Assembly: GCA_016215105.1 (NCBI GenBank) | Contig: JACRLJ010000137.1 | Span: 1 to 36,099 of the forward strand | Origin: Candidatus Hydrogenedentota bacterium | Lineage (GTDB): Bacteria; Hydrogenedentota; Hydrogenedentia; Hydrogenedentales; SLHB01 | DNA length: 36,099 nucleotides | Direction: 5' to 3' | Shown: in pieces, positions 1,179 through 33,155 of the stretch | Numbering within the stretch: position 1 is the first letter of the stretch | Layout: each line of letters begins with the position of its first letter | Translations under genes and position numbers: made by a program | The notes under the pieces: generated by a model | Seen by the model: the letters and a program-made list of their open reading frames with translations, nothing else | Told to the model about the DNA's origin: nothing | The model's database searches: none

Positions 1179-3095
1179 ATGGAAAACGACAACAAGGCTA
1201 AACAGAAGGCGATGGACCTGGCCGAGGATGCGCGCCAGACCGAGTGGAAATTCCCGAGTTTCACCGCGGAATTATTCCGCGGCGCGTTTCGCTGGGATCT
1301 GATGCATCCCTATCCGGTGCAAGATCCGGAGGACAAGAAGATCGGCGACGAATATCTCGACAAGTTGCGCGGTGTCCTCAAGAATCACTGCGACCCGATC
1401 AAGATTGACAAGACCGGAGTCTACCCCAAGGAAACGCTTCGGGCATTGGCGGAAGCCGGCGCGTTTGGGATGAAGATCCCCAAGGAGTACGGCGGGCTTG
1501 GTCTCTCTCAAACCAACTACAGCCGCGCGCTGTCGCTCATCGGAAGCTACTGCCAGAGCACAGTAACCTGGGTCTCCGCTCACCAGAGTATCGGCGTTCC
1601 GCAGCCGTTGAAGATGTACGGCACAAAGGAACAGAAGCAGAAGTACCTGCCGCGTCTGGCTAAAGGCGATATTTCGGCGTTCGCTCTAACCGAGCCCGAT
1701 GTCGGTTCAGACCCTGCCAAGATGTCCACGACCGCGACCCCGTCCGAGGACGGTTCGTATTACCTTTTGAACGGCGATAAGTTGTGGTGTACGAACGGAC
1801 CCGACGCGGACGTGCTAGTCGTGATGGCGAAGACGCCGCCAGTAGTCGTGAACGGCAAGGAACGGACTCAGATTACGGCGTTTATCGTGGAAAAGGAAAT
1901 GCCGGGTTTCGAAATCGTTCAACGGTGTTCCTTCATGGGCCTCAAAGGCTTGTCCAACGGGCTTCTGCGTTTCACCAACGTGCGTGTTCCGAAAGAGAAC
2001 GTCATCGGAAAGCCGGGCGAGGGTCTGCGCATCGCCCTTGCCACCCTCAATACCGGCCGCCTTGGCATTCCCGCCGCGTCCACGGCCTGCGGCAAGCTCA
2101 GCCTCCAGTACGCGGAGAAGTGGGTGAATGAACGCGTGCAGTGGGGCGTGCCCATTGGAAAGCACCAAGCCATCGCGAAGAAAATCGCCAATATGGCCGC
2201 CGATACCTTTGCCATGGACGCGATCGTTTGGATCGCCTGTGCGTTTGCCGACAAGGAAAACGCCGACATCCGGCTCGAGGCCGCTATTGCGAAGTATTTC
2301 TGCACGGAGACGGCGTGGCGCCTGTTGGACGACTACCTGCAGGTAAGTGGCGGCCGCGGGTACGAAACCGCCGAATCACTTGCGATCCGGGGTGACGACC
2401 CGGTCCCGGTCGAACGCATGCTACGCGACTCGCGCGTGGCGCGCATTTTCGAGGGATCGAGTGAGATCATGCACCTCATCATCGCCCGCGAGGCCCTTGA
2501 TACTCACTTCAAATTGGTAATGCCGATCATGATGCCTCCGAAGGGCGCGAAAGAAAGCAAGTTCTCGCTCATCAAGAAGGCGGCCGCATTCTATCTGACC
2601 TGGTATCCCAAGCAGTGGCTGCCTTCGGGACAAAGCTTCAACGTCAAACACCTTTCCACCACCAACCAGGACCACCTTGCGTACGTAGATCGCACCTGCC
2701 GCAAGATGGCCAGAACCATCTTCCACCAGATGGCCAAACTCCAGAAGAAAATGGAGTACGAACAAATCCTCCTGGGAAACTTCGTCGATATCGGTGTCGA
2801 TCTGTTCGCGATGAGCGCCTGTCTGGCCTACGCCGAGAGTTTTCTCGCCAAAGACTCCGCGAATCAAGGTCCTCAAGAACTCGCGGATCTGTTCTGCAAG
2901 AACGCGCGGGTCCGGATCGGCGAAAACTTCCGGCGCGTCAAGGACAACCATAACAAGACGTTCAATAAGGTGGCCAAATCGCTTATGGAAGGCAAATACC
3001 GCTGGCTGCTTACCGACATCTATCAGGATTTTCCCGAGGGCTATGCCCCGGGTGATTATGTCCCCGCGGACCACGAAAACGCAGCAGTGAAGTAG
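1179..3095 (+). CDS. Acyl-CoA dehydrogenase, long form with C-terminal helical extension
   Basis: A 638-residue FAD-dependent acyl-CoA dehydrogenase, which introduces the trans-2,3 double bond in acyl-CoA in fatty-acid beta-oxidation. Visible: the FAD/substrate signature FALTEPDVGSD near residues 166-176, the Arg-rich middle domain, a QVSGGRGYE segment near 389, and RIFEGSSEI near 421-429 with the expected catalytic glutamate at about 424. About 200 residues follow the core, longer than ordinary short/medium-chain enzymes (about 380-400) and like the very-long-chain/ACAD9-type architecture with an extra helical domain. There is no signal peptide. The start is set by GAGGG 8 nt upstream. It appears monocistronic: its own promoter and palindromic operator lie upstream and a strong hairpin follows. 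Exact chain-length preference cannot be read from sequence. Confidence 0.93.
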   Translation: MENDNKAKQKAMDLAEDARQTEWKFPSFTAELFRGAFRWDLMHPYPVQDPEDKKIGDEYLDKLRGVLKNHCDPIKIDKTGVYPKETLRALAEAGAFGMKIPKEYGGLGLSQTNYSRALSLIGSYCQSTVTWVSAHQSIGVPQPLKMYGTKEQKQKYLPRLAKGDISAFALTEPDVGSDPAKMSTTATPSEDGSYYLLNGDKLWCTNGPDADVLVVMAKTPPVVVNGKERTQITAFIVEKEMPGFEIVQRCSFMGLKGLSNGLLRFTNVRVPKENVIGKPGEGLRIALATLNTGRLGIPAASTACGKLSLQYAEKWVNERVQWGVPIGKHQAIAKKIANMAADTFAMDAIVWIACAFADKENADIRLEAAIAKYFCTETAWRLLDDYLQVSGGRGYETAESLAIRGDDPVPVERMLRDSRVARIFEGSSEIMHLIIAREALDTHFKLVMPIMMPPKGAKESKFSLIKKAAAFYLTWYPKQWLPSGQSFNVKHLSTTNQDHLAYVDRTCRKMARTIFHQMAKLQKKMEYEQILLGNFVDIGVDLFAMSACLAYAESFLAKDSANQGPQELADLFCKNARVRIGENFRRVKDNHNKTFNKVAKSLMEGKYRWLLTDIYQDFPEGYAPGDYVPADHENAAVK

Positions 3096-3142
3096 ATCGG
3101 CATAGCGCCGGCGCCTGCAGCAGATATCCTCGTTCCATATCG

Positions 3143-3176
3143 GCATCGCCACACACCATCCGGTGTGTGGCGATGC
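3143..3176. terminator. Strong hairpin between convergent genes (likely bidirectional terminator)
   Basis: A perfect 15-bp stem (GCATCGCCACACACC paired with GGTGTGTGGCGATGC) with a 4-nt ATCC loop, followed on the plus strand by TGTTTG. It sits between the ends of the acyl-CoA dehydrogenase (+) and the aldo/keto reductase (-). The T-run is short, so intrinsic termination efficiency is uncertain. Confidence 0.65.
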
Positions 3177-3223
3177 TGTTTGACGTATACCTGAGGCTCT
3201 ATACCTTTCCGCGCGCCGATGGC

Positions 3224-4228
3224 TCAACGGATGCGGCTGTTGGCGTCGTTCTCCCACATGTCCGCGTTGGCGCCGAAGTGGCGCCGCAGCGGTTCCGTAA
3301 TGAGATTGAGTTGTTCAATGGTTTCGACGCCAAGGCTGAGTGAGATTGCCCGAAGGTTTCGTTCCAACTGGACCGGATTGCGCGCGCCAACAATCGCCGA
3401 CGCAACTCCCGGTTGGGCGAGCACCCAGGCAAGGGCGACGGTGGCCAGTGGTTCGTCGATATTCTCGGCCACTTGGCCGAGGCGAGTCAGGGTCTCGAGC
3501 AGCAAGGGTTCGGCGCCGGGCTCCCCGTGGCGAGTACCTTCGCGGGACGCGGAAAAATGCCGGGTTCTCCGCCGGTTAACGGGAATTTCCTCGACGCTCT
3601 TCCATCGCCCGCTGAGGATACCTTGCATTAGGGGCATGTAGGCAAGGATAGCGATGTTGCGCATGCGGCAGGCGGGGACAATGTCGTATTCGACCGCGCG
3701 AAAAAGCAGATTGTAACCCACTTGATTCGACGTGCAATATCCCGTCGCCGTCCATGCTTCGAGATCCGTGGGACCAAAATTGGACACGCCAATGTGGCGG
3801 ATCTTTCCTTCCTCCTCGAGACGCCGAAGTTCGTCGTATACGTCATCAAAAGGGACATCCCTACAGGGCCAATGAATCTGGTATAGGTCAATCCTGTCCA
3901 TGCCGAGGCGTTGCAGGCTCGCTTCGCAGGCGGCGCGTAGCTTGCCGGGGGCGCATTGGTCGGGCCAAACCTTGGTGGCGATGAGCACTCTATCGCCGTG
4001 GTCGGCCAGCGCGCGGCCGAGAATGCGTTCGGACTCGCCTGCGCCATACATCGGAGCGGTGTCAAAGAAGTTGATGCCCGCGTCAAGGGCCGCGTGAACC
4101 GCTGCGACCCCGTCGGCTTCGGCGTCGGGTCCCCAATACGCCGGGTCGCCGAGCTGCCATGCGCCGAACGTGAGGACGGAAACGTTGAGGCTGCTTCCGC
4201 CGAGTTTGTGGTAGTACATCGTATCCAT
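3224..4228 (-). CDS. Aldo/keto reductase
   Basis: A 334-residue NAD(P)H-dependent aldo/keto reductase of the (beta/alpha)8 fold. The catalytic tetrad is complete: Asp56 in NFFDTAPMYG, Tyr61, Lys86 in IATKVWP and His119 in LYQIHWP. Other family hallmarks are the GVSNFG segment after the IRHIG strand and a C-terminal VGARNPVQLERNL cofactor-binding segment. The start at 4228 is supported by AGGGA 6 nt upstream; a second ATG three codons in is possible. It is transcribed divergently from the beta-helix gene and convergently with the acyl-CoA dehydrogenase. The substrate is not predictable; many environmental relatives are general aldehyde or sugar reductases, often near glycan-processing genes. 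Confidence 0.92.
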   Translation of the reverse strand: MDTMYYHKLGGSSLNVSVLTFGAWQLGDPAYWGPDAEADGVAAVHAALDAGINFFDTAPMYGAGESERILGRALADHGDRVLIATKVWPDQCAPGKLRAACEASLQRLGMDRIDLYQIHWPCRDVPFDDVYDELRRLEEEGKIRHIGVSNFGPTDLEAWTATGYCTSNQVGYNLLFRAVEYDIVPACRMRNIAILAYMPLMQGILSGRWKSVEEIPVNRRRTRHFSASREGTRHGEPGAEPLLLETLTRLGQVAENIDEPLATVALAWVLAQPGVASAIVGARNPVQLERNLRAISLSLGVETIEQLNLITEPLRRHFGANADMWENDANSRIR

Positions 4229-26119: not shown

Positions 26120-26153
26120 TAGGAATCCGGCCGGAAAGTCGCCTTCTTGACGC
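26120..26153 (-). repeat. Left copy of 34-bp inverted repeat around the arginine decarboxylase gene
   Basis: The reverse complement of this segment matches 27143-27176 at 31 of 34 positions. Both contain GCGTCAAGAAG and GGCCGGATTCCTA. The pair brackets the pyruvoyl arginine decarboxylase gene. Confidence 0.7.
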
Positions 26154-26159
26154 GGCACG

Positions 26160-26234
26160 GCCAGAAAGCATCTGCAAGCTGCTCAATGCCAGCGCTGGCT
26201 CGTGCGGAGTTTTGCTATGTGGAGGCTTTCTGGC
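26160..26234 (-). mobile_element. 75-bp miniature element with 10-bp terminal inverted repeats (copy A)
   Basis: Its ends are GCCAGAAAGC and GCTTTCTGGC, perfect reverse complements, and the centre holds CCAGCGCTGG, also palindromic. The reverse complement aligns without gaps to 30752-30826 with 68 of 75 positions identical, all differences being transitions. It is intergenic here. It encodes nothing, so movement, if any, would need an outside transposase. Confidence 0.75.
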
Positions 26235-26343
26235 GCGCCCCCAGCGGGAAGTTACGGAGTCCGTGCAAGGTAAAGTGCTCGAGTTCGGGGCGAGACACCG
26301 TCCTCCGAACCCGACAGGGATGATCGAGGAAGAGTGGGCAGGA

Positions 26344-27056: not shown

Positions 27057-27142
27057 GAGTTTTCTTGCATCCCGGCCGGCGCGCAGCTTCTCAGAAGCGA
27101 AACGAGAGGGCGAGTGTCCTCATTCGCCGGTTCTGGTGCGCT

Positions 27143-27176
27143 GCGTCAAGAAGCTGACTTTCTGGCCGGATTCCTA
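27143..27176 (+). repeat. Right copy of 34-bp inverted repeat, overlapping the dapL stop
   Basis: It pairs with 26120-26153 (31 of 34 in inverted orientation). Its last three bases (27174-27176) are the TAG stop of dapL on the minus strand. Its last part, CTTTCTGGCCGGATTCCT, also recurs at the outer edge of the second 75-bp element (30818-30835). Confidence 0.7.
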
Positions 27177-28324
27177 AATCTTGAGATTTGACTTGATACT
27201 CGCCACGGCCCGCTGGATATCCTCGGCGTGTCCAAACGCGCTCAGACGGAAATACCCCTCGCCCGCAGGACCAAAGCCGGAACCCGGCGTCCCAACCACG
27301 TGCGCTTCGCTCAAGAGCTTGTCGAAGAAATCCCACGAGGGCAGGCCGTTCGGCGTCTTCATCCAGAGGTAGGGCGCATTCACGCCGCCGAACACCTTGA
27401 TTCCAATGCTTTCGAGACCTTCGCGGATCACACGCGCGTTGTTCATGTAGTACGCGATGATCTCGCGGCACTCCTTCTGCCCTCGTTCGGACAAGATCGC
27501 CACGCCGCCGTCCTGAACGATATTCGACGCCCCGTTGAACATCGTCGTCTGCCGGCGCAGCCATAGGCGGTTGAGCTTGCCCGGCTCGCCGTCCTCGCAC
27601 ACCAAATCTTTCGGCACAACGGCCCAGCCGAGCCGCACACCTGTGAATCCGGCCTCCTTCGAGAAGCTATTGATCTCGAGCGCGCATGACTTCGCGCCCT
27701 CCACCTCGAAAATCGTGCGCGGCAGTTCCGGGTCGGCGATAAACGAAGCATACGCCGCGTCGTAAATGATTACGGCCTTATGCTTGAGCGCGTAGTCCAC
27801 GAACAGCTTCAGTTGTTCTCGTGTCGCGACAGCCCCGGTTGGGTTGTTCGGGCTGCACAAATAGATCAGGTCCACCTTGCCCTTGGGCAACTCAGGGAAG
27901 AAGCCGTTCGCCTCCGTGCATGGCATGTACACTAATCCCGCGTACTGGCTCCCCTTCACCGCGCCCGTTCGTCCCGCGATGACGTTGCTGTCCACGTAAA
28001 CCGGATACGCAGGGTCCTGTACAATTCATCGGGATCGAGCGATACGCCGTACTCGGTGTAGCGCTTCGCCAACGCCTCGCGCAGGTCCGTGTTGCCCTGT
28101 TCATCGCCATAGCCCGTGTAGGTCTTTACGTCGGCCAGTTTATCCACGCCGCGATGCAATCCCGCGATTAACGCCGGCGTCAACGGCTCCGTCGTATTGC
28201 CAATTCCCAGCCGCATGACCTGCGCGCCCGGATGGGCCGCGAGAAACGCCCGCGTGCGCTTCGCAATCTCTGGAAACAAATAACCAGCCTGTAACTTGTC
28301 GTAATTTGTGTTAATCCGCGCCAT
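27174..28324 (-). pseudogene. dapL: LL-diaminopimelate aminotransferase, disrupted by internal deletion and frameshift
   Basis: The family makes LL-diaminopimelate from tetrahydrodipicolinate (PLP-dependent; lysine and peptidoglycan). The first part (28324 down to about 28022) starts MARINTNYDKLQAGYLFPEI and runs to SLDPDEL; the second part, in another frame, resumes at [13 protein letters not shown] and continues to the stop at 27174, including NNPTGAVAT and the PLP-lysine region [13 protein letters not shown]. Between them, at 28017-28022, some 25 residues normal for the family (the segment holding the SDGAK-type cofactor-binding motif) are missing and the frame is shifted: only five bases separate the two parts where about 78 would be expected. 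The gene as given cannot make a working enzyme. It may be a true pseudogene or an assembly error; DapL is often essential, which favours checking the reads. Confidence 0.85.
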
Positions 28325-28461: not shown

Positions 28462-30861
28462 CTACTTCGGGGCACCTTTCACTGATGCGCTTGTGCCTCC
28501 AAATGCCGTCAACGCTGGCAGGAAGTCAAGACGGGGACGTGTGCCGTCGAAAGAGCCGTCGGTCTGCCACAATTGGCGGCCATGCACGCGGTCGTCCGCG
28601 GTGAAGAAGAGTTCGGTCCGTCCCGGCGTCAGCTCCCGCAACGATGCGCCTTCGAAGGGAACGGAGACGATGTCCCGGATTTGGCGAGTATTCTTCCCTA
28701 TTCCGTTGGTGGACCACAGTTCTTCGCCGTGGACACCGTCGTTGGCGCGGAAGAAGACGAGGTCCTTCCACACGCGCAGATCGCGCGGCGACGAGGATGC
28801 CGGCCCCGGATTGATGTCGTGGATAATGCGTGGGCCGGTGGCGTCGGCCCACCAGAGTTCTTCGCCCTCGACCCCGTCGTTGGCTACAAACACCAAACCG
28901 TCGCGGAACGGTGTGAATTCTCGCGGGCCGGAACTTTCGATTCCCGCCTCGATATCACGGACCATGAACGTGCCGGCCTCGGAGCCGTCGCTACGCCACA
29001 GTTCCGTGCCGTGGACGCCGTCGTCGGCCCGAAAATAGAGCATGGAGCCAACGACGGTGAGTTCCTCAGGAGATGAACTGGCAGGTCCTGGAAAGATGTC
29101 GCGGACGAGGCGGCCGTCCTCTGCCAGAACTGAGTCACTCGTTGCCCAGAGTTCCGCTCCGTGTTGGAGGTCGTTCATGACGAAGTAGAGCAGGTCCCCG
29201 GCGGGCGTCAAGTGCGTTGGCGAGGAGGACGGGTTCACAAACGGTTCGCGAAAGATGTCTTTGACCATGGTCGTGCCGGCTTCGGTTCCGTCGCTTCGCC
29301 AGAGTTCACGGCCATGCGCCGCGTCGGCGGCGCCAAAAAGCAGGATACCGTTATAGTTCACGAGATGGTACGGCTCCGAACTGGTGGGGCCGGAATTAAT
29401 GTCTTTCACCATATACGTGCCGGCTTCGGTTCCGTCGCTTCGCCAAAGCTCTTCACCATGTACTCCGTCCGGCGCCGAGAAGAACAGGGTCCCATTGACA
29501 TCGCACAGTTGATACGGTCTGCTGTCGTGAAGTCCCGGCCATATATCTTTGACGAGGCGCGTTCCTTGAGGAGCGCCATCCGATACCCACAGTTCGATAC
29601 CCGAGACACCGTCAGACGCCACGAAAAAGACGCGTCCACCGGAGTCCCAAAAAGCTCCGGGCCTGGAACCGGCTGGTCCGGGACAAATGTCCTTGAAGAG
29701 CATAGTGCCCACAGGAGTTCCGTCGGTGCGCCAAAGTTCTTCCCCGTGATCGCGATCCGTCGCCTGGAAATACAGCATGCCGTCGAACTCATGAAAGTAA
29801 CCTGGATAAGATTTTGCGGGTCCGGGGTTTATATCCACGAGCAAGCGTGTCCCTGCTTCCGTGCCGTCGGATACCCAGAGCTCCTGACCATGGTCCTGGT
29901 CAAACGACGAGAAGTATACGCGTCCGCGAAAGGTATACAGCGATCCCGACTCCTGGTCCGCGGCGCGGATGAAGTTGGTACCTGCGTCTGTTCCATCGGT
30001 CTTCCAAAGACCTGCGTCCCCTTTTCCTTCGCCGTCGACAATGCGCCAGAACGCCAGAAAGTATAGCTCGGCGCCAGACAGCGCTACCCGCTCACTGTTC
30101 TGGAATCCTGGCGACGGGGAATCCGCGCCAGGCCACAGGTCCCTTATCAGCCGCGTACCGTTCTCCGTCCCGTCACTCCGCCAGAGTTCGCGGCCATACT
30201 TCGCCGAGTACGCGGTCAGATAAACGAAGCTCGGTGTAGCGCGCATCAGAATAGGGTCCGGCCCCTTCTCGTTGATTGGCCTTGGCTCGAGGTTCTTGGG
30301 GATCACCACACGTACTGCGCCTTTCGCGTCAACTTCCGCGGCGTTGAGTTCACGCAGATCGCCGTAGCTGGTAAGCGCCAAGGCGTTGAATAGCAGGCGA
30401 TTCCCGCAGCCAACGAAATTGCGCGGGTCCGACGACTTCGGTCCGGGGACAACGTCGGACGCCAGTGTCGTTCCTTGCACGGTACCGTTCGTAACCCACA
30501 GTTCCCGTCCGTGATTTCCGTCGTCCGCCGAGAAGTACACTCGATTGTCGAACACAAAGAGATACTGGGGGGCCGACGAAGGTGGAACGAACGTCTTTGT
30601 GTTCGGGCTCTTCGCCACTTCTGTATCTGCCGCGGCGTACGCCCAAACGGAAGCAAACGCGATTAGCGGCACAACCACAGCAGTGCGAAGGCGCGCGACT
30701 CGGCGTCCGGCGCCGGTGTCACGAAACGCGACGCCGCGCTCTAAAGGCGCGGCCGGAAAGCCTCCGCATAGCAAAACTCCGCACGAGCCAGCGCTGGTAT
30801 TGAACAACTTACAGACGCTTTCTGGCCGGATTCCTGGCTCGATCCTGGAGTGGAGCGTCAT
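28462..30861 (-). CDS. ELWxxDGT-repeat protein, probably exported
   Basis: 799 residues with the ATG at 30861, which overlaps the kinase stop by 4 bp (ATGA). About 13 repeats of the ELWxxDGT type fill residues 120-790 (e.g. GRELWRSDGTENGT, GQELWVSDGTEAGT, GEELWRTDGTPVGT), each followed by DI-x-PG and S-x-P, a pattern thought to form a beta-propeller-like array; the last copies are degenerate. A hydrophobic segment (TAVVVPLIAFASVWAYAAA, about 64-82) looks like a signal peptide but lies unusually far from the start. The extra N-terminal stretch includes a 75-bp repeat element read in frame (30752-30826). Either the element enlarged the N-terminus or the true start is a non-ATG codon further in. 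Some repeats are nearly identical at DNA level. Function unknown; coupling to the kinase suggests a shared envelope role. Confidence 0.85.
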   Translation of the reverse strand: MTLHSRIEPGIRPESVCKLFNTSAGSCGVLLCGGFPAAPLERGVAFRDTGAGRRVARLRTAVVVPLIAFASVWAYAAADTEVAKSPNTKTFVPPSSAPQYLFVFDNRVYFSADDGNHGRELWVTNGTVQGTTLASDVVPGPKSSDPRNFVGCGNRLLFNALALTSYGDLRELNAAEVDAKGAVRVVIPKNLEPRPINEKGPDPILMRATPSFVYLTAYSAKYGRELWRSDGTENGTRLIRDLWPGADSPSPGFQNSERVALSGAELYFLAFWRIVDGEGKGDAGLWKTDGTDAGTNFIRAADQESGSLYTFRGRVYFSSFDQDHGQELWVSDGTEAGTRLLVDINPGPAKSYPGYFHEFDGMLYFQATDRDHGEELWRTDGTPVGTMLFKDICPGPAGSRPGAFWDSGGRVFFVASDGVSGIELWVSDGAPQGTRLVKDIWPGLHDSRPYQLCDVNGTLFFSAPDGVHGEELWRSDGTEAGTYMVKDINSGPTSSEPYHLVNYNGILLFGAADAAHGRELWRSDGTEAGTTMVKDIFREPFVNPSSSPTHLTPAGDLLYFVMNDLQHGAELWATSDSVLAEDGRLVRDIFPGPASSSPEELTVVGSMLYFRADDGVHGTELWRSDGSEAGTFMVRDIEAGIESSGPREFTPFRDGLVFVANDGVEGEELWWADATGPRIIHDINPGPASSSPRDLRVWKDLVFFRANDGVHGEELWSTNGIGKNTRQIRDIVSVPFEGASLRELTPGRTELFFTADDRVHGRQLWQTDGSFDGTRPRLDFLPALTAFGGTSASVKGAPK
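30752..30826 (+). mobile_element. 75-bp miniature element (copy B) read in frame inside the ELWxxDGT gene
   Basis: GCCGGAAAGC and GCTTTCTGGC form its ends (one mismatch), with the same central CCAGCGCTGG. It is in the opposite orientation to copy A, with 68 of 75 identical. Its length is 25 codons, and in the minus-strand gene it has no stop (PESVCKLFNTSAGSCGV and following). Confidence 0.75.
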
Positions 30862-33155
30862 GAAACGCCTTTCGTCTGTTCCGTGGTCTGCGGGCCAGAG
30901 CTTTCTTTTGCGGGCGCGAGTGGGGTCGCAGGCGCCGCGACGGCAATTTTCACGCCGTGGACCACTTCGGAGACGCCTGGGAATCCCCATCGGACGAGGA
31001 GGTCGTGTTTGCCATCACGTTGAGCCCGCGTTACTTCACAGTTGAGGCGCCATGGATCCGTCGTCGGTCCGCCACGGAGTTTAGCCATTCCGGCAAAGGG
31101 AATAAGTATCTCCGCGTGCCACGTTCCATCTTCGATGCTGTCGGCGATTTGCCAGTCAGAATCCCAATGCAGTTCGATACCTCGAACGACGATGCGGCCT
31201 GCGAGTGAGCCGCTCGATGACTTGCGAGCAATCACGTACGGCGACTGGTCAATGGGCGCGGCGATACCGGGCATCACCGCGAGTTCGACGCTGAGTGGCG
31301 CGTTCGATTGGAGTGGCGCCGATAGACCCAATAAGAGCCCGTCGTCAAAGCACCTGGCCAGCATCATCGCGGAGCGGTCGTAGGGCACTCCCTTGCATTC
31401 CGCGGCTTTGGCGTCACTGCTCGAAGTGAGCCCCGTCCAGAATGTTTCGGTCAATTTCCCGTCCACCTTAAGCTCGTGCGCGTCGTCCTTGACGAAAGCC
31501 GCCACGAGAGACGCGCCGGTTATGCTGGGGAATAAGGTTTCGGCTCGTTTGGCCCATGTGTACCGCCGAGGCAACAACTCGTGGTAGAGCAGCGGCTGGA
31601 CGAGCGCGGCTTGTTCCATGCGGTACACGAATGCGGTGTCGGAAGACAGATCGCGGCGTCGAGTTGCGCTCAACGTTCCCGACCGGGTTGAACTGTCGCT
31701 CCCGTCTCTGAACGTGAGCGAGGCCGTGAGTTGTTCGTTAGGAACGCTCCACAGGCCGGTCCCGATTATGCCACCCTGGTGGAACACGGTGGCGGCATCG
31801 TCGCGGAATTCCGCCCAGTTGCCCTCCAACGCAAGTTGTTGGTCTTTCCCCTGGGGCATGCGGAGCACCCACAGCGACCGGTCGGTGGCCGCGTAGATAG
31901 TGGAATCGCGTCCAGGCCGCGGGGCCTCGATCATCCACGTGAGTTCGGTCTTCTCGGCGGAATCTTGGAGTCCCTCGGCAGTGTCGAGGAGGACGGCGTC
32001 GAAGACCCAGTATTCAGGACCGGCCTTCGATTTGAAGCATTGGAGAAGAACGTCTTTTGAAGGCGCAGCCGACTGCTGGACTTGGTCTTGGAACAGGGGG
32101 GCCGGGGTGGCGTTGTGGCGCGACAACAAGTGCGAACGGTACAAAGGCGGGAACAAATACACTAGTGCAAGTACGAACCCGGCGGCAATGAGAGTCAGTC
32201 CGGCGCGTTTCAGTGTGGCGCGCCGTTTTCGACGCGTGGAGAGCGAAGCGATGGCGGACTTTGGCACACGCAAGGTTGGGAGTTCGGTGACTTCTCCGGC
32301 GGACGGAAACTCCGGAACCGAGCGAAGCGTGCTGAGCGCTTCGGCCGCGCAGACGGGGCGTTCACCGGGATCCCGCCGGAGCAAGGATTGGACCAAATCC
32401 GCAAGTTCCCGGGAAATTGCAGGGGTTACTTCGTCGAGACGCGGAACTGGACGCGAATCAATTTGGCGGATAAAAGCGAAGGGGTTCTTCGCCTCGTAGG
32501 CGGGCTTTCCCGCCAAGGCCTCATACATCACCATCCCCACCGCGTAGAGATCCCAGGCCGGCGTAGGTGTTGCGCCTTCCCACAGTTCGGGTGGAGCGTA
32601 GCGCGGAGTGCCAAGGCAGAAGCCAGAAGAGGATGTTCTGGAAATGGCGGCTTCCATATGGGCCGCGTACGCCGTGGCAATACCGAAATCGCCTAGCTTT
32701 GCCCTTGCGTCGCGGTTTACCAGGATGTTGCTGGGCTTGATGTCGCGGTGGATTACGTGGGCGTCGTGACACACACAAAGCCCTGTCAATATGTCTGCGG
32801 CGATACAGGTTACGCGCGGCACGCTCAATGCCTGCGCCGCGAGGTAGTGCTGGAGGTCGAACCCATCGACATATTCCATGTCGATGAGAAGATGGCCTTC
32901 CAGCGAGTCAAAGCTGTTTACGTGGATGATGTTGGGATGAAGCATTCTGGCGATGGAGCGCGCTTCTACGCGGAACCGGTCAACGAAGTCCTGGTCGGAA
33001 TTCAACCACGGGTTCAGGAGTTTAAGCGCGATGTCCCGTTGGAGTTGGGTGTCTTCCGCGAGATACACCACGCCCATACCCCCGCGACCCAGTTCGCGCA
33101 CAATTCTGTACTTCCCCAGTGAATCTCCCGAGCTGAACTCGTCAAAGCCGTGCAT
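30858..33155 (-). CDS. Transmembrane Ser/Thr protein kinase with CBM9-like outer domain
   Basis: 765 residues. A Hanks-type kinase domain (about 16-280) is complete: glycine loop GRGGMGVVY, Lys45 (IALKLL), Glu64, catalytic HRDIKPSN with Asp138, DFG with Asp156, and the APPE segment. A basic stretch (TRRKRRATLKR) leads into one TM helix (about 317-336). The outer part (about 345-765) ends in a domain resembling family 9 carbohydrate-binding modules (VDGKLTETFW, later WHAEILIPFAGM), so it may sense glycans or envelope material. It phosphorylates Ser/Thr in the cytosol; targets unknown. The stop overlaps the ELWxxDGT gene start by 4 bp. A candidate promoter lies at 33236-33264. The ribosome site (GAGG, about 13 nt upstream) is weak. 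Confidence 0.92.
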   Translation of the reverse strand: MHGFDEFSSGDSLGKYRIVRELGRGGMGVVYLAEDTQLQRDIALKLLNPWLNSDQDFVDRFRVEARSIARMLHPNIIHVNSFDSLEGHLLIDMEYVDGFDLQHYLAAQALSVPRVTCIAADILTGLCVCHDAHVIHRDIKPSNILVNRDARAKLGDFGIATAYAAHMEAAISRTSSSGFCLGTPRYAPPELWEGATPTPAWDLYAVGMVMYEALAGKPAYEAKNPFAFIRQIDSRPVPRLDEVTPAISRELADLVQSLLRRDPGERPVCAAEALSTLRSVPEFPSAGEVTELPTLRVPKSAIASLSTRRKRRATLKRAGLTLIAAGFVLALVYLFPPLYRSHLLSRHNATPAPLFQDQVQQSAAPSKDVLLQCFKSKAGPEYWVFDAVLLDTAEGLQDSAEKTELTWMIEAPRPGRDSTIYAATDRSLWVLRMPQGKDQQLALEGNWAEFRDDAATVFHQGGIIGTGLWSVPNEQLTASLTFRDGSDSSTRSGTLSATRRRDLSSDTAFVYRMEQAALVQPLLYHELLPRRYTWAKRAETLFPSITGASLVAAFVKDDAHELKVDGKLTETFWTGLTSSSDAKAAECKGVPYDRSAMMLARCFDDGLLLGLSAPLQSNAPLSVELAVMPGIAAPIDQSPYVIARKSSSGSLAGRIVVRGIELHWDSDWQIADSIEDGTWHAEILIPFAGMAKLRGGPTTDPWRLNCEVTRAQRDGKHDLLVRWGFPGVSEVVHGVKIAVAAPATPLAPAKESSGPQTTEQTKGVS

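Follow-up and report, generated by a model that had tools for sequence, protein, structure and literature searches.

The ELWxxDGT locus

The window, a stretch of 36,099 nucleotides from the Candidatus Hydrogenedentota contig JACRLJ010000137.1, carries a gene for an ELWxxDGT repeat protein directly downstream of a protein kinase gene, and copies of a palindromic repeat lie both between its genes and within the 5' part of the ELWxxDGT gene (Table 1).

Table 1 Features of the window discussed in the text.
Feature	Position	Strand	Basis or remark
Copy A, nearly full-length element (125 bp)	26120–26244	+	Between two genes
Left-end-only element copy	27131–27176	-	Terminal TAG (27174–27176) is the aminotransferase stop
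LL-diaminopimelate aminotransferase-like gene (3' part)	27174–27995	-	Ends on the element's TAG
ELWxxDGT repeat protein gene, 799 aa, carries B	28462–30861	-	NCBIfam TIGR04534, E 3.2e-214
Hydrophobic core AVVVPLIAFASV of presumed signal peptide	30646–30681	-	Codons 61–72
Element B, 96-bp short form	30741–30836	-	Inverted-pair comparison, family alignment
ATG start of ELWxxDGT gene	30859–30861	-	Overlaps kinase stop (30858–30860) as ATGA
Serine/threonine protein kinase gene	30858–33155	-	Pfam PF00069
AAAGG, Shine-Dalgarno-like	30868–30872	-	6 nt before the ELWxxDGT ATG

The initial annotation had placed a stop-free palindromic repeat of 75 bp, or exactly 25 codons, between the kinase-coupled ATG and the signal-like segment of the ELWxxDGT gene. 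Its placement is correct: B runs across codons 9–41 and the hydrophobic core begins at codon 61. The repeat is likewise real and free of stops in the ELWxxDGT frame, but it is longer than described. The inverted pair found in the window (26158–26234 versus 30752–30828; 77 nt, 91% complementary) delimits only the 75–77 bp that B has in common with copy A, while the whole of B extends from CAG at its left end (30834–30836) to TAG at its right end (30741–30743) and comprises 32 codons. Because both ends share one TAG, the net addition is 93 bp. The flanks of B differ from CTAG (CCAG on the left, TTAG on the right), and its ancestral empty site would be expected to read GAG-CNAG-AGCGCGGC, in frame.

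TIGR04534 matches the ELWxxDGT product in 13 stretches, and the kinase-ELWxxDGT gene order is widespread in element-free relatives; the kinase lies directly upstream, with stop and start often overlapping, across the order. Among 15 relatives, the distance from the kinase stop to the hydrophobic core is 7–112 nt with a median of 49 (L050 and L060 were left out, the wrong segment having been taken as the core). In the window this distance is 176 nt, or 83 nt without the net 93-nt addition of B, and the element would account for a core lying about 60 residues from the start. The 60 codons concerned would encode, for example, IRPESVCK and LFNTSAGSCGVLLCGGFPAAPLER. Comparison with element-free relatives showed that ELWxxDGT homologues begin just ahead of the hydrophobic core, and in one of them (L036) the ATG lies at -4 to the kinase stop, the same overlap as in the window. 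Given these distances and this overlap, the ancestral gene very probably began at the present ATG, with B inserted in frame between ATG and core.

A usable in-frame start downstream of position 30752 was not found between the element and the core. Four other in-frame starts exist: two TTG codons within B (19 and 30) and two GTG codons within the hydrophobic core (62 and 64). Since homologue spacing fits and no start intervenes, B is likely to be translated as part of the ELWxxDGT leader, as the initial annotation had suggested from its open frame.

A dispersed family of palindromic elements

B is one member of a dispersed palindromic repeat whose full form is 126 bp; pairing of the first 100 matches listed for each end pattern gave 44 pairs, and 38 of these were exactly 126 bp. 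A search of the whole genome (6.68 Mb, 171 contigs) that allowed up to 3 mismatches located 187 left ends and 153 right ends; the same patterns reversed gave 0 at this threshold. The copy number in the host genome is well over 150. We used 137 stretches around copies (712 kb) as a detailed set. A profile search of these identified at least 153 non-overlapping copies, of which 101 are complete, 33 retain just the left end and 19 just the right part. Because it was built from the first 100 matches listed per end, this census is a minimum count and favours well-kept ends.

Family alignment indicates that the ends are conserved and that the middle occurs in two types, distinguished chiefly by the loop and by bases 6–8, with both palindrome arms being the same in the two types. 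Read inward from either end, the element begins TAG-(N)-CGGCCAGAAAG and thus consists of two inverted, TAG-ended palindromic seeds. The 96-bp form to which B belongs occurs at further loci and looks like a deletion between two CGGCCAGAAAG direct repeats. A 43-bp form with a truncated right end accounts for some of the left-only copies; two mini copies of about 43 bp (L195, 2790–2824; L196, 2488–2519) adjoin similar sequences that we take to resemble the YADD motif of reverse transcriptases. Among the copies listed, 183 of 606 element frames (30%) are open. The element was not found in plasmids, phages, viral contigs or other genomes, in collections that may omit the host's own genome. Nor was it found in any of 59 relatives (0/59), all of which lie outside the host genus, so no relative carries the sequence as ordinary coding DNA.

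Genomic placement and use of stop codons

Genes around the copies were called with a purpose-made codon-based caller. Among the 153 copies listed, 40 overlap a gene and 9 fall at stretch ends; of the intergenic ones, 66 separate tandem, 23 divergent and 11 convergent genes. Four are inside genes as called, two of these calls being short and doubtful. Most copies are therefore extragenic, and the genome-wide search proposed with the initial annotation places in-gene copies in the minority. Most gene overlaps are exactly 3–4 nt long, with the terminal TAG of the element serving as the stop codon of the gene. Left ends serve in this way in 27 of 134 copies and right ends in 12 of 120; overall, 37 of 153 copies do so (all among copies listed). 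Stop codons make up 38 of 247 empty CTAG sites outside gene interiors, compared with 37 of 149 insertions among the copies listed (p = 0.024). Most of this placement can be explained by an NTAG target, usually CTAG, together with the loss of insertions that do harm.

One such case lies within the window, where a left-end-only copy ends the aminotransferase gene. All homologues examined (80/80) stop within -3 to +1 residues of the element's TAG, indicating that the element joined a natural stop and that the gene was not cut short. The nearest named match of the aminotransferase is from Candidatus Hydrogenedentota (74% identity). The gene itself is split over two overlapping frames (27174–27995 and 27956–28324, minus strand), which suggests a frameshift, whether by mutation or assembly error. 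At two other loci (L110, 2501–2626; L146, 8024–8149), the stops of a convergent gene pair are the two ends of a single element, and these pairs look as if the genes once had an overlapping CTAG stop in common.

The many copies between tandem genes would also suit a role for the element as an RNA hairpin, acting in mRNA stability, termination or translation control between the kinase and ELWxxDGT genes, with the open frame of B being accidental. The predicted fold is a long hairpin of -60.8 kcal/mol on the plus strand, and this strand gives the more stable fold in 50 of 54 copies. However, base-pair changes across copies show no excess of covariation over shuffles, for which reason we claim no selection at the RNA level. 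Orientation relative to genes is not constant, with in-frame copies occurring both ways, and no Rfam family fits, the single match being sub-threshold, to a viral microRNA family, and taken as chance. We consider this role an unlikely explanation of the locus.

Recurrence ahead of signal-peptide cores

Among the copies listed, 23 open reading frames hold a whole element, and these were read codon by codon. A second screen, in which the frame could be open or closed, considered 91 gene/element pairs with the element on the 5' side of the gene (among copies listed). In 29 of the 91, a hydrophobic 12-mer lies within 45 codons past the element, and ten of these 29 have no usable start with a basic residue after it. 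L091 (a low-scoring call of 186 aa with a stop between) and L116 and L177 (no signal-like core) were dropped. This left seven insertions between a start and a signal core, chosen by hand and after the fact: B in the ELWxxDGT gene, L075 (GH42), L087 (Amidase_3), L148 (beta-helix), L153 (heparinase-like), L065 (NHL repeats) and L092. The six hosts with a named family are exported-type proteins.

Six of the seven are stop-free from the upstream start, and the probability of at least six in seven is 0.004 given 30% open frames (183/606). The seventh, L092, has an antisense element around 2502–2625 that is in an open phase yet carries a stop inside the element, which counts against the frame always being kept; ATG codons further along the element, before the signal core, could restart translation there. 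The upstream starts also vary in quality, with a distant Shine-Dalgarno-like sequence (about 15 nt) before the L087 ATG and only a TTG, no ATG, in L065.

Homologues from a search of 60 genomes were informative for three of the other hosts (GH42, heparinase-like and amidase): similarity begins just past the element, and the homologues start there. Alignments to L302, L306 and L316 extended further left and were treated as over-extension. The GH42 gene is the clearest case, with AGGAG, a 7-nt spacer and ATG followed by MRS[element]VFVSLLVLTGGAVAGES, in which the element occupies 41 codons. Element-free relatives read MRRS-VLIAIMILTGPLGVEAE (L311) and MRIR-IALCTAIILCAAAFAASAE (L315), so that MRS[41 codons]VFVSLLVLTGG pairs with a relative's MRRS-VLIAIMILTG. 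In the heparinase-like gene, AAGGAG precedes an ATG followed by MHTSVR[antisense element]SDLYGLLILQVLFLQPFLAQAQ, while the amidase gene reads MSRTG[element]VWLLIGIALTCCAQPVYA behind a weaker ribosome-binding site. From the element-free homologues, the upstream ribosome-binding sites and the absence of later starts, we argue that at least some N-terminal copies are translated.

In-frame copies also occur away from signals, at the N-terminus of an N-formylglutamate amidohydrolase (L107) and near a C-terminus (L175). L187, the sole candidate of a codon-score test for spanning open reading frames, was rejected, as its own start comes after the element. Altogether, the element seems to have landed in frame past the start codon in about six exported-protein genes other than that of the window.

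The element might instead supply the start codon and act as a portable signal-peptide n-region, in which case it would be translated only in part. TTG codons 19 and 30 of B could serve in this way, with part of B still being read; antisense copies hold an ATG followed by the basic stretch MLSGRAASKSRLSGRIP, an in-frame ATG lies within the antisense copy of L148, and L092 offers element ATG codons beyond its in-frame stop. The internal starts, however, lack a good Shine-Dalgarno sequence (TTG 30 has GGAG only 2 nt upstream), and the antisense ATG is absent from L153, which has ACG instead. Initiation within the element is thus an improbable account of B. Less probable again is a mis-annotated start, with the element as an untranslated kinase-ELWxxDGT leader and translation beginning downstream: although most copies are extragenic, several element-holding frames have their own start past the element and GTG codons 62 and 64 are present, a start at either GTG would leave zero basic residues ahead of the core, unlike in the homologues, the ATG at 30861 has both its Shine-Dalgarno-like sequence and the kinase overlap of L036, and the GH42 and heparinase-like genes keep a strong Shine-Dalgarno-ATG upstream of the element.

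Movement of the element

Several junctions show how much DNA an insertion adds. Tandem copies at L083 and L195 have one TAG in common, and at a paralogous empty site (L331 versus L143) the junction aligns without a gap, with GAG in place of the single TAG. A full copy therefore adds a net 123 bp (41 codons). Joined flanks of 100 junctions were also searched for empty sites, yielding 3 spanning matches, two of them to one paralogue pair and one an element-to-element artefact; none came from a relative. Just before the left TAG, position 0 is variable (77% C), in contrast to the constant right end; a four-base duplication is therefore unlikely. The left tetramer is mainly CTAG, with GTAG in the minority, and the left and right tetramers often differ. 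A TAG duplication and an insertion next to NTAG both fit these data.

Candidate mobilizing enzymes were examined by their surroundings. None of the 13 Y1 transposase genes, all of whose surroundings were scanned, is flanked by a pair of element ends (0/13), and no DDE_Tnp_1 gene is flanked by element ends (0/5). One left-only copy lies about 1.1 kb from an IS200-like gene, and two of the Y1 genes are RAYT-like, with scores below the family cut-off. In L331, two similar RAYT-like tyrosine transposase genes (325–924 and 2654–3259, minus strand) lie beside genes paralogous to the one that comes after the element in L143.

Proposed explanation

We propose that B is an in-frame copy of a mobile palindrome, translated from the kinase-coupled ATG into the n-region of a signal peptide, and give this reading a probability of about 0.77. 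The element would be dispersed and non-autonomous, would insert at an NTAG site, usually CTAG, and in its full form would add 123 bp. Insertions would be tolerated because they add whole codons and, in either orientation, normally have one phase free of stops. Three settings would then allow them to persist: intergenic DNA; the TAG stop of a gene, where the element end would regenerate the stop codon; and, in frame, a dispensable stretch, such as that from the start codon to the hydrophobic core of an export signal. The copy in the ELWxxDGT gene, a deletion form, would have landed in this last type of region. Translation from the kinase-coupled ATG would run through it to give an n-region of about 60 residues; cleavage of the signal peptide would also take away the inserted residues, with no change to the mature protein.

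As a tentative extension, signal-peptide n-regions may be a preferred refuge for the element, which would persist within coding DNA because it is cleaved off together with the leader, and antisense copies may even donate a start and a basic n-region.

Comparison with known systems

Rickettsia provides the best-known in-frame palindromic elements, and the initial annotation drew the analogy between these and B. It holds for the mode of working, with at least five other genes appearing to behave alike, but not for the distribution, the present family being mostly extragenic. Rickettsia palindromic elements are described as short palindromes that lie between and inside genes and are read in frame without destroying the gene (PMC10969869). 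The present element resembles them as a palindrome of 96 or 126 bp with 187 left ends in one genome, and in its six stop-free, in-frame N-terminal cases, three of them with homologue support, in which the proteins are presumably intact. It differs in its host, Candidatus Hydrogenedentota, which belongs to another phylum; in that most copies are extragenic or at stop codons; and in that in-gene copies cluster before signal-peptide cores and not inside metabolic enzymes. Two element peptides gave no match up to E 1 against NCBIfam, which presumably includes RPE models.

The second parallel is with REP sequences. Termini of GTAG-tagged REP dimers often give neighbouring genes a TAG stop, and some copies are intragenic (PMC3733652, PMC3116915). 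The element shares with REP dimers and REPINs an inverted pair of TAG-ended seeds around a hairpin, a high copy number and a mostly extragenic placement. Unlike GTAG REP dimers, its tetranucleotide is mainly CTAG and its unit is 126 bp, and, unlike the case of RAYT-associated REPINs, none of the 13 Y1 genes lies between a pair of its ends. N-terminal REP copies in other genomes have largely been put down to wrong start calls (PMC3733652), a caution against which the GH42, heparinase-like and amidase cases would speak, judging from their homologues.

ERIC/RU elements of enterobacteria are palindromic repeats of about 127 bp with open frames, and an ERIC-type repeat has been described as part of one predicted signal peptide, that of pestis YPO1552 (PMC2759123). 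In that instance, a lone putative gene, ERIC itself provides the signal, whereas the present element precedes a pre-existing core, recognizable in homologues, in about six genes. Terminal inverted repeats, a short non-coding unit of fixed length, deletion derivatives and tandem copies with one common TAG are all features shared with MITEs that have short target duplications; no parent element was found near the 5 DDE_Tnp_1 or 13 Y1 genes. Literature searches on in-frame palindrome or MITE insertions before signal peptides and on Hydrogenedentes repeats, covering mostly titles and abstract openings, listed no paper with the present pattern.

The element thus seems to work like Rickettsia palindromic elements and TAG-ended REP dimers, a likeness in mode of working from which membership of either family does not follow. 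What is new is its recurrence before signal cores and its exact use of natural stops, far from Rickettsia. Translated N-terminal palindromes would thereby extend to an uncultured lineage unrelated to Rickettsia, and loss of the insert together with the signal peptide offers a testable hypothesis for the tolerance of mobile DNA in some protein regions.
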